Source of the DNA: Dechloromonas sp. A34
GTDB taxonomy: Bacteria > Pseudomonadota > Gammaproteobacteria > Burkholderiales > Rhodocyclaceae
Assembly: GCF_026261605.1 (NCBI RefSeq)
Contig: NZ_CP102486.1
Coordinates: 2,480,001 to 2,544,000 of the forward strand
Reading direction: 5' to 3'
DNA: 64,000 nt
The first letter of the stretch is position 1, and each line of letters begins with the position of its first letter. Below, piece after piece: positions 36,990-44,654 of the stretch. The notes beneath the pieces are model-generated. The model worked only from the letters and a program-made list of their open reading frames with translations. It was not told the origin of the DNA and did not search any database. Position numbers and translations under genes: made by a program.

Positions 36990-37664
36990 TTAGAGTGTCG
37001 CGAATTCTACTGCCAGCCGGGGGCTGTCGGGCGATTGCAGGTGCAGCCTGGCAGCCGTCGGCTGATTCAGCCAATTGGCAACCAGAGCGGGGAAATCCGG
37101 GGTGTCGGGCACGGCCGCGGGGACGTTCGCAGTCGTTGGCAGCAAGCAAGCCCGGGCGGTTTCCAGACGGGTGCCGGCGAGGGCCAGCCAGTGGCCGACG
37201 GCGCCATCCGCTGTGCTGTCGAGATGGGCGCACAGGACTTGCGCGTAACGACCTTCGGCCAGCCAGTTGCCGGCCAGCGCGAGGAGCAGCGACCAGTTGG
37301 CGAGACCGGCGGTATCGAGCGGGAAGTGCATGGCCGAGCGCAGGCCGGGGAGGAAGGGCTGGATCTGGACTGCGGCCAGGACGGGCTGGGTGGCCAGAAA
37401 CTCGAAGGGCATCGGTTCGCCGCCACCGGCGTAGAGTTCGTCGAGCATGGCCTGGGTCTCCTGGCGCGGGCCATGGGTCGATTGCCAGAGCAGGGCGGTT
37501 GGCAGGTGGCGGCGCTCGGCGGGCAGGTTGGCCAGGGCCCCGAGCAGCGCCAGTTGAGTCAGGGGGGCGGCACGGCGCAGCGGTTTGCCGAGCGCGGTGC
37601 GGACGGCACTCGGCAGCTCGTCGGCGGCGAGGTGCTGGCTGAAGGCGGAGGTCAGGTAGATCAT
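36990..37664 (-). CDS. Ketoacyl-synthase-like protein without active site (chain-length-factor-like)
   Basis: The 224-residue protein resembles only the N-terminal half of a ketoacyl synthase (Ketoacyl-synt_2/PF13723 type, often annotated as chain length factor in aryl-polyene-type clusters). Recognisable parts are PTALLWQSTHGPRQETQAML and FPLDTAGLANWSLLLALAGN. No catalytic cysteine sits in a KS-like context, so it is probably a non-catalytic partner or scaffold of the synthase upstream. It is the last gene of the lipid operon; its ATG overlaps the upstream stop by 4 bases. Confidence 0.75.
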   Translation of the reverse strand: MIYLTSAFSQHLAADELPSAVRTALGKPLRRAAPLTQLALLGALANLPAERRHLPTALLWQSTHGPRQETQAMLDELYAGGGEPMPFEFLATQPVLAAVQIQPFLPGLRSAMHFPLDTAGLANWSLLLALAGNWLAEGRYAQVLCAHLDSTADGAVGHWLALAGTRLETARACLLPTTANVPAAVPDTPDFPALVANWLNQPTAARLHLQSPDSPRLAVEFATL

Positions 37665-38740
37665 CGGCGCTCGACGATCATCGTGGCCAGCCCGCCGCCG
37701 AAGCCGACCAGATTGAGCATGGCGCGTTTGACCGGGGCAGTGCAGCGTGTCGTGGTCGGTTGCAGGCCAATTTCCGGATCGGGATCGGCAAAGCCGGCGG
37801 TGGCTGGAATTCGCTCGCTATCGAGGCAGGCGATCAGGGCGGCCGCTTCGGCGATGCCGCTGGCGCCCAGGGTATGGCCGAGCGCCGACTTGAGCGAGAG
37901 CAGTGGCGGCATGGCTTGGGCGAAAACCCGGCGCAGGGCGTTGGCTTCGGCGAGGTCGGTGCCGGGCGAACCGGCGGCCTGCAGTTTGAGCAGTTCGATG
38001 TCGCTTGGCGTCAGGCCTGCCTCATGCAGGCAGTCGGCGATCACGGCCGCCAGCGGGCCGCCTTCGGGATCGGGGCCGGTCATCGAATAGGCATCGATCC
38101 CGGTGCACAGGCCGGCGATGCGCCAGCGGCCGGGCGTGGCCGAGAGGCGCAGGGCGGCGACCGCTTCGCCGAGGACCAGGCCGTCGCGGCGGGCGTCGAA
38201 CGGCCGGCAGGCGCTCGGCGAGAGCAGCTCCATGGCGGCGAAGCCGGCCAGGGTCAGATTGTTGGCGAGCTCGATGCCGACGATGACGGCCTCGTCGATC
38301 TGGCCGGCCGCGATCAGACTGCGTGCCGCATCGATTGCGGAAAAGCCGGAAATGCAGGCATTGGACAGACTGTAGCGCGGCCCGGCGAGTTGTAGCCAGT
38401 CCGCAATGGTCCGGCTGAATTCGGCATTGGCGGCGGGCAGGTCGCAGGGAGCGCCTTGTTGCTCGAAATGGCCGATCTGGAAGGACGAGGAGGCGACGAA
38501 GAGCGGGGCGCCGGGATGCAGCGGGCCAAGCTGGGCGGCGATGCAGCCGATGGCCCGCTCGGCGCGGGCCAGCCAGTTGGGTTCAGCCAGCGGCAGGCTG
38601 AAGTAGGGAAATTCGCGCTCGCCGAGCCGGCGCTGGCTGCTTGCCCAATCGCCCGTCCACAGGGCGTCGGCGACGGCCGCCGGCGAATCGCCGCGGGCGC
38701 AGAGTAGTCCGCTGCCGGTGAAATAGACCGGGCGGCTCAT
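37661..38740 (-). CDS. Beta-ketoacyl-ACP synthase (KAS I/II-like) with an altered active site
   Basis: This 359-residue thiolase-fold synthase has the nucleophile Cys129 in YSLSNACISGFSAIDAARS and the second conserved Lys/His block KSALGHTLGASG. The first catalytic histidine, normally in a NxHGTxTP motif, is replaced: the aligned stretch reads LLKLQAAGSPGTD. It is also shorter than FabF or FabB (about 405-412 residues). It likely elongates or condenses acyl chains on the ACP encoded just upstream, but its chemistry could differ from standard decarboxylative condensation. ATGA overlaps join it to both neighbours. Confidence 0.85.
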   Translation of the reverse strand: MSRPVYFTGSGLLCARGDSPAAVADALWTGDWASSQRRLGEREFPYFSLPLAEPNWLARAERAIGCIAAQLGPLHPGAPLFVASSSFQIGHFEQQGAPCDLPAANAEFSRTIADWLQLAGPRYSLSNACISGFSAIDAARSLIAAGQIDEAVIVGIELANNLTLAGFAAMELLSPSACRPFDARRDGLVLGEAVAALRLSATPGRWRIAGLCTGIDAYSMTGPDPEGGPLAAVIADCLHEAGLTPSDIELLKLQAAGSPGTDLAEANALRRVFAQAMPPLLSLKSALGHTLGASGIAEAAALIACLDSERIPATAGFADPDPEIGLQPTTTRCTAPVKRAMLNLVGFGGGLATMIVERR

Positions 38741-39006
38741 GCGCGCCGGGCAAGCCAGGCGTCGAGGTGTTCGGCGAGGTTGGCGACGCTGGACAGGATG
38801 CGGCGGGTTTCCTTGCTGTCCGGCAAGCGCAGCCCGTATTTCTTCTTGATCGCCATCGAGACTTGCAGGGCGTCGAGCGAGTCGAGCTGGAGCGGCGCTT
38901 CCGGGCCGAACAGCAGTTCGTCGTCGGTAATGCTGGCTGGGTCACAATCCTTGTCGCAGGCTTCGACGATCAGGGCTTTGATTTCAAGGCAGAGGGCAGC
39001 GTTCAT
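38737..39006 (-). CDS. Acyl carrier protein
   Basis: The 89-residue carrier has the phosphopantetheine attachment serine at about residue 43 in APLQLDSLDALQVSMAIKKK. Acidic and hydrophobic residues are spaced as in ACPs of secondary fatty-acid/polyketide systems. It overlaps the permease and the synthase genes by 4 bases each. It is presumably dedicated to this cluster; housekeeping acpP is not in the window. A phosphopantetheinyl transferase must come from elsewhere. Confidence 0.92.
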   Translation of the reverse strand: MNAALCLEIKALIVEACDKDCDPASITDDELLFGPEAPLQLDSLDALQVSMAIKKKYGLRLPDSKETRRILSSVANLAEHLDAWLARRA

Positions 39007-42537: not shown

Positions 42538-43681
42538 GGTCGACTGCGGTCAGGTACATCAACGAACCGGTGAAACGGCCGCTTTCGGGAACGAAGCAGA
42601 GCAGGCGGTCGCCGGCCTTCAGTCGACCACTCTTCAGCAGTTCGTCGATCATGATGTAGATCGCTGCCGAGCCGGTGTTGCCCTTGGTGTGCAGGTTGGT
42701 GAACCATTTTTCCGGCGCCACCGTGAAGCCGACGGTGGCCATGCAGTCGGCGATCGGCAGTCGGAAATATTCGGAAGACATGTGCGGCAGATACCAGTCG
42801 ACATCGGCCGGAGTCAGGCCGCGGCTGGTCATGACTTTTTCCAGCGGTTTGCCGACCGTCTGGTAGACCACGCTTTCGTTGAGCAGCCGGACGTCCTGCT
42901 TGACCGCAAAGACCGAGCGCGCCGCCCATTCCTCGGCAGGGAAGGCTTTCCAGCCTTTCAGCGAACCATCGGCCTGCTTTTCGCCGCCGGCATACATGCA
43001 GACGTCCATATGGTTGGCCTGCGACAGGATGTCGATCCACTCGATGCGCAGCGACAGGCCGCTGGCCGCCGGCCGGTTCTGAAGCAGGAAGGCGCCGGCG
43101 CCGTCGGACAGCATCCAGCGCAGGAAATCCTTCTCGAAGGCGATTTCGGGATTGTTTTCCAGTTCGGCAACGCGGAATTCGGATTCGGCCTCGAAATTGC
43201 GCGCATGCAGCACGGCGGAAGCCTGTTCCGAGCCGGTGGCCACGGCATTCTCGGCGAGGCCGGCGAGGACCGACATATAGGCGTACTTCAGTGCGGTGAT
43301 GCCGGAAACGCAGATGCCGGCGGTGGAGACCACTTCGCAGGGCGGGATGCCCAGTTCGCCGTGAACCATCACGCCATGATTGGGCATCAGCTGGTCGGGC
43401 ATCGTGGTGCCGGTGGCGAGGCAGTCGATCGTCTGGCCGACCCCGAGACCGCGCACGGCTTCGGCCGTGAGCTGGGCATTGGTGTGGGTCGTTTCGCCGG
43501 TCAGCGGATCGATCGCGTAATGGCGCTGGCGGATGCCGTTGTTGCGCAACACGATGCGGCGGGCGCGGGAAGGCCGGCCACCGACCACGCCGAGGATGTT
43601 TTCCATGTCCTCGTTGCCGACTGGGGCATTAGGCAAAAATGCCGATGTCCCCGTGATGTAAACCTTGCCGCTACTGTGCAT
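42530..43681 (-). CDS. Beta-ketoacyl-ACP synthase III-like condensing enzyme (DarB-like)
   Basis: The 383-residue thiolase-fold enzyme has the KAS III triad: Cys124 in [17 protein letters not shown], His in [16 protein letters not shown] and Asn in [16 protein letters not shown]. It is longer than FabH (about 317 residues) and fits the secondary-metabolism branch that includes DarB, which starts dialkylresorcinol synthesis. It follows the DarA-like gene with an 11-base overlap. The substrate and whether it primes or terminates the chain cannot be told from sequence. Confidence 0.88.
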
Positions 43682-44654
43682 ATTTGTTCAGGTTGAAGTC
43701 CTGCGAGCCGGAAGGTTGTTCGAGCTCGGTTTTGAGTCGTTCAAGCCGGGGCTTGAGCAGGGGAGAAAGCAGCCATTGTAGCAACAGGCTTAAGGGAACG
43801 ACGGTCAGTACCAGGGTGATCAGGTACAGGGCAAAAACGAGCAGCATCGGCCGTCGCCGCCACTGGCCGCGTTTGCCGAAGGCGCGGATCAGCTTCGACC
43901 AGACCTTGAAAGCGCGGTGGGCGGCGCGCTCGCTGAGGGCGAGGCGGGGATTGACGGTAGTGGCGCGCAGGCCGGTGAGCATGGCGGTGCCGGATTTCTC
44001 GCCGTCCCGGTCGAGCGCATCGCTCAGGGCGCGGCCGAAACGGCTGGCCTGGCGGATTTCTTCCGGCGCCACGCCGGCCGGCGGCAGGCCGAGCCACCGG
44101 TCGCGGCGGCCGGTCAGTACCCAGCGCGGGGTGGTGATGAAGGTGGCCAGCGCGTGACCTTGATCGGTAAACGCCAGGTGGTCGCGTAATTGACCGCCGG
44201 CTTCGGCGATCAGCCGTTTCATGGTCTCCTGTGCCGAGAGCCACATGTTGCGACAGGCGACCAGCGTGATCACCGGTTTGCCGTCGATCAGCTGCCGGCC
44301 TTCCGGGCTTTTCAGAAAGGCTGTCATCGGCAGGGCGGGCGACAGGTACCAGACCTGATAGGTCAGGATCACCAGGTCAAACTCGCGGCTGGCAGGAATC
44401 CCCAGGGGCTTAAGTGGCGGTGCATCAAGCTGCACGCACTCGGGGAAGGCGTCGACGAAATCGACGATTGGCCACGGCCACGGGAAGGGCGTTTCCGGCA
44501 CCAGGGTTTCGAGATGCACGTCGTGCCCGGCGGCTCGCAGCGGGGCGATCACCTGCGCCGTGATGTCGGCGAGTTGTCCGGTTTGCGAATAATTGATGAC
44601 GAGAACGTGTTTCAAGCTGGTTTCTGGTGGCTGGGTAACCCGCGATTCTAGCAA
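43671..44654 (-). CDS. DarA-like flavodoxin-fold condensing enzyme with membrane anchor
   Basis: The 327-residue protein opens, after a short leader, with [20 protein letters not shown], a flavodoxin-like nucleotide-binding start. [14 protein letters not shown] and [20 protein letters not shown] follow, a pattern annotated in relatives as dialkylresorcinol condensing enzyme (DarA). A hydrophobic hairpin near the C-terminus ([20 protein letters not shown]) should anchor it in the membrane. It is the first gene of the nine-gene operon, divergent from pyrG (119 bases). The start is uncertain: a TTG 13 codons downstream would also fit the fold. Confidence 0.78.

Follow-up and report, generated by a model that had tools for sequence, protein, structure and literature searches.

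To address what is made by a tightly packed operon of Dechloromonas sp. A34, we analyzed a window of 64,000 nucleotides (NZ_CP102486.1 positions 2,480,001-2,544,000; assembly GCF_026261605.1) together with the rest of its genome, a single contig of 4,757,803 bases. A preliminary description of the window had seen here an unusual stand-alone assembly line. Open reading frame (ORF) calling confirmed all nine minus-strand ORFs, which span 44615 to 36990. Read from the sequence, darA and darB overlap by 11 bases, darB and darD by 8, darD and darE by 4 (1 if the second ATG is the start) and darE and darF by 1; a 3-base gap separates darF from darI, and three overlaps of 4 bases follow. The operon is very probably the dar arm, for 2,5-dialkylresorcinol (DAR), of an arcuflavin-type yellow pigment pathway, whose aryl-polyene (arc) arm is encoded elsewhere in this genome, at a distance of 2.2 Mb. 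The genes point to a dialkylresorcinol esterified with a polyene as the likely product, and not to a free lipid. We assign the pathway because the gene order is like that of Azoarcus sp. BH72, because DarB, DarD and DarE score over NCBIfam cut-offs, because a polyene cluster is present in the genome, and because a polyene ketosynthase (KS) was found in every one of 21 genomes with DarB.

In Azoarcus sp. BH72, azo0293-azo0283 are listed as darA, darB, darD, darE, darF, darG/darH, darI, darC, darJ and darK (Schöner et al. 2014, PMC3949708 Table 1). There darA is labeled DAR-aromatase, darB DAR-cyclase, darD conserved hypothetical, darE BtrH-like and darF ABC ATPase, followed by darG/darH as Phd/PilT types, darI as permease, darC as acyl carrier protein (ACP), darJ as ketosynthase and darK as hypothetical (PMC3949708). 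The window operon reads A-B-D-E-F-I-C-J-K on one strand, which by annotated role, as distinct from a comparison with the BH72 sequences, is the BH72 order minus the Phd/PilT pair between darF and darI. In BH72 this toxin-antitoxin-like pair, azo0287-azo0288, bears the names darG/darH (PMC3949708), while the NCBIfam names DarG and DarH stand for DarD and DarE of Schöner et al., not for that pair. Polyene genes unlinked to the dar operon are a further likeness between the two genomes, but they form two loci in BH72 and one in A34. According to the same paper, the BH72 pigment carries DAR with a proposed ester link to the polyene, arcK and arcT insertions gave colourless strains, and the BH72 dar proteins gave DAR in Escherichia coli, while DAR was undetectable in BH72 extracts; DAR and polyene clusters are also named there in Dechloromonas aromatica, Variovorax paradoxus and Sideroxydans lithotrophicus (PMC3949708). 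The published arcuflavin dar cluster thus matches the gene set, the outcome named beforehand as refuting the idea of an unusual stand-alone assembly line, and the operon is an ordinary, well-conserved example of a published kind.

Most of the protein identities first proposed were upheld: a StlD/DarB-family synthase, a BtrH_N plus DUF4872 protein, an ABC ATPase, an ABC-2 permease, an ACP (weak) and a ketoacyl synthase, with a last gene that has no family of its own and is ketoacyl-synthase-like by profile and predicted fold. DarB passed NF005293 (605.8 bits, cut-off 450) but not the resorcinol_DarB model NF053539 (496.9 bits, cut-off 550), and was therefore assigned to the wider StlD/DarB subfamily alone; StlD 5gk0 is a relative of solved structure (E 2.6e-156). 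DarA matched no Pfam or NCBIfam model at E 0.001 and no PDB sequence at E 1. The flavodoxin fold first given to it was not borne out by these searches, whereas the name DarA stands because of the published operon order and conservation beside darB; darA was present in all 61 of the DarE loci with sufficient flank. Upstream of darA, we aligned 10 intergenic regions, from the window and its near relatives: nine have the box TGnTAGAAT and one has TGnTAAAAT. Since this -10-like box (44653-44645) sits inside the ORF begun at 44654, the TTG at 44615 is the more likely start of darA. In the same alignment, about 40 bases beside the pyrG start (44735-44774) were near-identical in 10 of 10 relatives while much other darA-pyrG spacer varies, and may belong to a leader or promoter of pyrG.

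We located the polyene arm by profile search, which placed a KS over the NF006618 cut-off at 4,741,129, about 2.2 Mb from the window. Genes of the surrounding locus (about 4.730-4.752 Mb) were called by codon-usage score, and 23 of the 25 ORFs were scanned in Pfam, NCBIfam or both. They include two ACPs, a KS, an AMP-ligase, a FabA/ApeI-like dehydratase, a Lip_A-type acyltransferase, LolA_3 and MMPL proteins; an alpha/beta hydrolase, a polysaccharide deacetylase, two methyltransferases and a DUF1615 protein; the NF006618 KS (557 bits), a Ketoacyl-synt_2 protein, a FabG-type reductase, a GT2 protein and a PlsC-type acyltransferase; and a FkbO/Hyg5-type chorismatase and a halogenase-like flavoprotein. 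Three scanned ORFs had no family, one of them at the position of arcI (second dehydratase), and by eye the remaining two ORFs are antiporter-like and MipA-type. This single locus covers most of the published arc list and is, by its gene content, of the xanthomonadin/arcuflavin type. The absence of aryl-polyene dehydratase and ammonia-lyase genes, as first described, therefore holds for the window stretch but not for the genome, where the FabA/ApeI-like dehydratase and other polyene genes lie at 4.730-4.752 Mb, and we rejected a self-contained resorcinol-lipid operon without a polyene.

The starter chemistry may separate this pathway from that of the flexirubins of Chitinophaga pinensis and Flavobacterium johnsoniae, with which it shares DarA/DarB, a DarD family that has an NCBIfam flexirubin branch, and, probably, a polyene-DAR ester as product. 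C. pinensis starts from tyrosine by the ammonia-lyase FlxA, whereas the chorismatase of the A34 cluster, a candidate for the XanB2 type (PF21168, 127.8 bits, cut-off 27; TIGR04444, 239.8 bits, below 325), may supply the aryl starter from chorismate, as an alternative to an ammonia-lyase. No tyrosine ammonia-lyase was seen among the 23 scanned ORFs, and no genome-wide search was aimed at it. A34 also stayed below the cut-offs for the FlxB equivalog at the polyene locus (293.2 bits, cut-off 340) and for flexirubin_DarG in DarD (126.4 bits, cut-off 170).

The neighborhood comparison proposed at the outset showed that the dar genes are conserved together. An alignment of 18 DarE sequences was used to choose loci, with at least 565 relatives among 595 pattern stretches; the best 80 loci were kept and scored for dar gene content with profiles built for this analysis. 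They span Azonexaceae, Zoogloeaceae, Comamonadaceae and Gallionellaceae to Pseudomonas, Vibrionaceae, Campylobacterota and Thermodesulfobacteriota. All eight of A, B, D, E, F, I, C and J were present in 66 of these 80, so the grouping is not due to chance. Where both flanks were long enough (61 loci), A, B, D and E were found in 61, F, I and C in 60, J in 58 and K in 41; the block F-I-C-J-K was collinear with DarE in 32 loci, convergent in 25 and otherwise placed in one, and DarI or DarJ was missing from three. Loci chosen by DarE say nothing on darAB without DarE. In another sample, chosen by DarB, among 369 genomes of the class, A34 included, DarB was over the cut-off in 21, with the polyene KS in 21 of 21 and DarE over the cut-off in 18. 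The polyene KS was over the cut-off in nine of 53 genomes sampled from 344 others (Fisher p 9e-12 against 21/21, the genomes not being phylogenetically independent), and in four genomes with weaker DarB-like matches DarE, LolA_3 and the polyene KS were all below cut-off. Around DarB in the 20 other genomes (9.6-19.5 kb each), F, I, C and J were present in 11, a contig end interrupted three, three had A, B, D and E without a second block in range, and three had darA and darB only. The D-E pair was divergent from A-B in two of 17 DarE-bearing neighborhoods. The three loci with darA, darB and no further dar gene (L075, L078 and L088, from genomes G221, G198 and G104) are lower in GC (0.37-0.40), and by eye the proteins beside darA in L075 (11292-12524) and L088 (6819-8060) have RWDGYISQ in common near the N-terminus.

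C. pinensis darB and darA gave DAR on heterologous expression (PMC3992019), so the other dar genes are dispensable for the DAR step, and we infer that D, E, F, I, J and K together with DarC serve coupling, transport and control. DarE passed NF053550 (474.3 bits, cut-off 300) and matched PF14399 and PF16169. Its residues C11, H120, H124 and D142 were invariant in all 18 aligned sequences; of the 80 loci, 73 have all three active-site motifs and seven have two of them, and the Cys motif occurs in every one of the 80. A review of papain-like enzymes describes BtrH of butirosin synthesis as an ACP:aminoglycoside acyltransferase and puts its BtrH_N domain near C39/C70 (PMC10318531). DarE fits this type by its BtrH_N domain and its conserved Cys, His and Asp, from which a triad would be formed, and the dar operon encodes an ACP as well. 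It differs from BtrH in a C-terminal DUF4872 and in its proposed acceptor, a phenol instead of an aminoglycoside. On DarE or BtrH in flexirubin or arcuflavin, we found nothing past the 2014 papers in our searches of the open-licence literature. The candidate acyl donor, DarC, has a loose [DG]S[LMIV] motif found in 72 of 72 DarC ORFs of related loci.

To characterize DarJ, we aligned it with the ArcK of A34 and with the KS beside the arc ACPs. In DarJ of the window the nucleophile Cys is kept, as are the Lys and the second His; around the first His, however, DarJ reads LKLQAAG against INLHGTA of ArcK. Among 69 distinct DarJ sequences (the window sequence, listed twice in our tables, taken once), this position was Gln in 30, His in 38 and a gap in one, and loss of the His as a family-wide trait was therefore rejected. 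All Gln sequences fell within one betaproteobacterial clade (support 100/100), whose 35 rows, the window duplicate included, held 31 Gln, three His and one gap. A single clean gain of the Gln is not supported, because of these three His rows and the three changes that the most parsimonious tree needs. A KAS I-type enzyme in which the first His is changed still loads acyl chains, with no decarboxylation of malonyl-ACP, which suggests that Gln-type DarJ may transfer chains instead of elongating them.

DarK, for which no Pfam or NCBIfam family matched, is predicted to be the partner of DarJ, a half-size, ApeC-like chain-length factor (CLF). Its AlphaFold2 model had a predicted local distance difference test (pLDDT) score of 89.7, and Foldseek matched it to 7f28_C (E 1.9e-8) and to ApeC 6qsp_B (E 6.8e-8). 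ApeC is the half-size CLF of the aryl-polyene KS-CLF pair (PMC8358021). By hhalign, DarK matched the ArcJ of A34 (E 2e-5, probability 77), and its R30 R31, invariant in 44 of 44 aligned sequences, lines up with the RR of that ArcJ; these residues are probably equivalent to ApeC's own Arg30/31. The arrangement resembles ApeO-ApeC (PDB 6QSP, 7F28) in a KS beside a half-size, single-thiolase-domain CLF with the conserved Arg30-Arg31. It differs in that the beta-clade DarJ lacks the full Cys-His-His catalytic set of ApeO-type KS, with Gln at the first His, that the N-terminal part of DarJ lies outside the KS model matches, and that identity between DarK and the solved ApeC chains is 15-19%. Since DarJ lacks the first His, we call the pair ApeO-ApeC-like and not a member.

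We propose that DarA and DarB would make the dialkylresorcinol, that DarJ-DarK, as a KS-CLF-like pair, would transfer the completed polyene from an Arc ACP to DarC, and that DarE would move the polyene acyl group from DarC via its own Cys onto the resorcinol phenol to form the ester. The product might then be flipped or exported by DarF/DarI and taken on to the outer membrane by arc-cluster proteins of LolA/MMPL type, and DarD, with its predicted helix-turn-helix (HTH), could tune expression. For the coupling steps by themselves, attachment of the polyene by DarJ/K, DarC and DarE, our confidence falls somewhat short of even. In the Betaproteobacteria, a fixed His-to-Gln change may have turned DarJ from an elongating into a transferring enzyme that with DarK, DarC and DarE forms a "coupling station" joining polyene and resorcinol, with the HTH protein and the exporter in the same two-block set in at least three phyla; this wider picture is tentative, and we lean against it slightly. 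The preliminary description had an operon that makes, transfers and exports a resorcinol-type lipid. The operon is indeed of resorcinol type and encodes a BtrH-type acyltransferase alongside an ACP and an exporter, but the direction of transfer is more likely the reverse, with the polyene acyl put onto the resorcinol.

Several points weigh against the joining of a polyene to DAR as read here. The product in A34 is read from its genes, and the literature searched, as far as its texts were available, held no functional tests of DarD, DarE, DarJ or DarK. The genomes G221, G198 and G104 hold the polyene KS and no DarE, with darA and darB only around DarB, so the transfer set is not obligatory, and DarDE as an obligatory companion of the polyene and DAR genes was rejected. 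LolA_3 was over the cut-off in 15 of the 21 DarB genomes, with two more at E 0.001, and no counterparts of arcF, arcW or arcX were seen among the scanned ORFs of the polyene locus. With the first His present in 38 of 69 DarJ, chain elongation is possible elsewhere. For the ester step of flexirubin, Schöner et al. proposed the ligase-like FlxW (PMC3992019). Finally, no operator for DarD emerged: a search for a common palindrome upstream of darA (exact arms of at least 6, 10 regions) was empty.

This last result bears on the role of DarD, which passed NF053536, the DarG family, with 171.5 bits (cut-off 70). Structure prediction gave an N-terminal hairpin, a long helix and a C-terminal Cro/C1-type HTH, on which basis DarD may be a regulator that tunes operon expression. 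We hold it nearly an even chance that DarD instead has the HTH fold without DNA binding and is a scaffold for DarE or the ACP. The would-be recognition helix (W94, R98, H99) is almost invariant across phyla, darD sits between darB and darE, and the HTH of an enzyme, HppE, ranks first among the structural matches, all of which, like the empty palindrome search, fit a scaffold, but the majority of the remaining matches listed are DNA-binding repressors.

A different division of labor, in which DarJ-DarK-DarC supply DarB with an acyl precursor that they build or trim, DarE acts on that acyl chain as a hydrolase or transferase, and a ligase or acyltransferase of the arc cluster joins the polyene, is unlikely. 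The retention of all catalytic residues in 38 of 69 DarJ would suit it, as would the proposal of FlxW as the joining enzyme and the acyltransferase-family genes encoded in the arc cluster itself. However, darB and darA were enough for DAR heterologously (PMC3992019), DarJ of the window is without the first His, and the Pfam and NCBIfam scan found no reductase or dehydratase gene within the nine-gene operon. Quite improbable is an operon that makes and exports free DAR as a signal or antibiotic with the polyene cluster uninvolved, since the polyene KS was in 21 of 21 DarB genomes and the free-DAR cluster of Pseudomonas chlororaphis is described without D, E, F, I, J and K (PMC6403133), even though that organism produces free DAR (PMC6403133), the A34 operon encodes an ABC exporter, and darAB stand alone in three of the 21 genomes. 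The P. chlororaphis PCL1606 darABC-SR cluster (2-hexyl-5-propyl-resorcinol) shares darA, darB and darC with A34, has two AraC-type regulators in addition as described, and yields some product even in a darC mutant (PMC6403133).

Table 1. The dar operon of the window, in the order of transcription.
Feature	Coordinates	Strand	Basis and remarks
Extended -10 promoter-like box, TG(n)TAGAAT	44645..44653	-	Alignment of 10 darA-pyrG intergenic regions
darA, DAR aromatase (label of Schöner et al.)	43671..44615	-	Operon position, conservation; start TTG 44615 preferred over TTG 44654
darB, StlD/DarB-type ketosynthase (DAR-cyclase label of Schöner et al.)	42530..43681	-	NF005293; StlD 5gk0
darD, NCBIfam "DarG family", candidate operon regulator	42142..42537	-	NF053536; predicted Cro/C1-type HTH
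darE, NCBIfam "DarH", BtrH_N + DUF4872 papain-like acyltransferase	41150..42145	-	NF053550, PF14399, PF16169
darF, ABC transporter ATPase	40239..41150	-	PF00005, 111.9 bits
darI, ABC-2 permease	39003..40235	-	PF12698, 124.8 bits
darC, acyl carrier protein, LDSL phosphopantetheine site	38737..39006	-	PF00550, 20.9 bits, cut-off 20.8 (barely over)
darJ, ketosynthase, first catalytic His to Gln (LKLQAAG)	37661..38740	-	PF02801, PF00109; alignment; tree
darK, half-size ApeC-like chain-length-factor candidate, DarJ partner	36990..37664	-	Predicted fold, Foldseek, hhalign

Starting 18 bases past darK on the same strand is a gene for a thioredoxin and TPR protein (36114-36971), which we take to be CnoX/YbbN-like. 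As a tenth operon member it was rejected: among 29 loci compared (L118-L146), several ending at contig ends, it lies 3' of darK in eight, all within the nine closest relatives. Near the dar operon, the plus-strand ORF 34759-36030 shows by eye a TIR-like N-terminal motif, ISYRRDDSEG, and then a long Ala/Glu/Lys-rich stretch; its protein had no match in the 29 compared loci, several of them short, at E 1e-15. At the left end of the window, exosortase-type polysaccharide genes (36-4192, by eye) lie beside a region of lower GC (4000-17000, mostly 0.47-0.55) with transposase-like ORFs at 11139-12365 and 13231-13500 (by eye), an arrangement that looks like an island.

Taken together, these results turn a seemingly unusual lipid operon into one half of a widespread pigment pathway that is split over the chromosome. 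Because the halves lie apart, a local reading or a short-range cluster caller would misjudge the product. The HTH of DarD, the CLF-like fold of DarK and the His loss of DarJ are new as far as our literature search reached, and the roles we give them are hypotheses. With these, D, E, J and K of dar operons offer concrete hypotheses for how polyene and resorcinol may be joined, the step left open in the 2014 papers (PMC3949708, PMC3992019).

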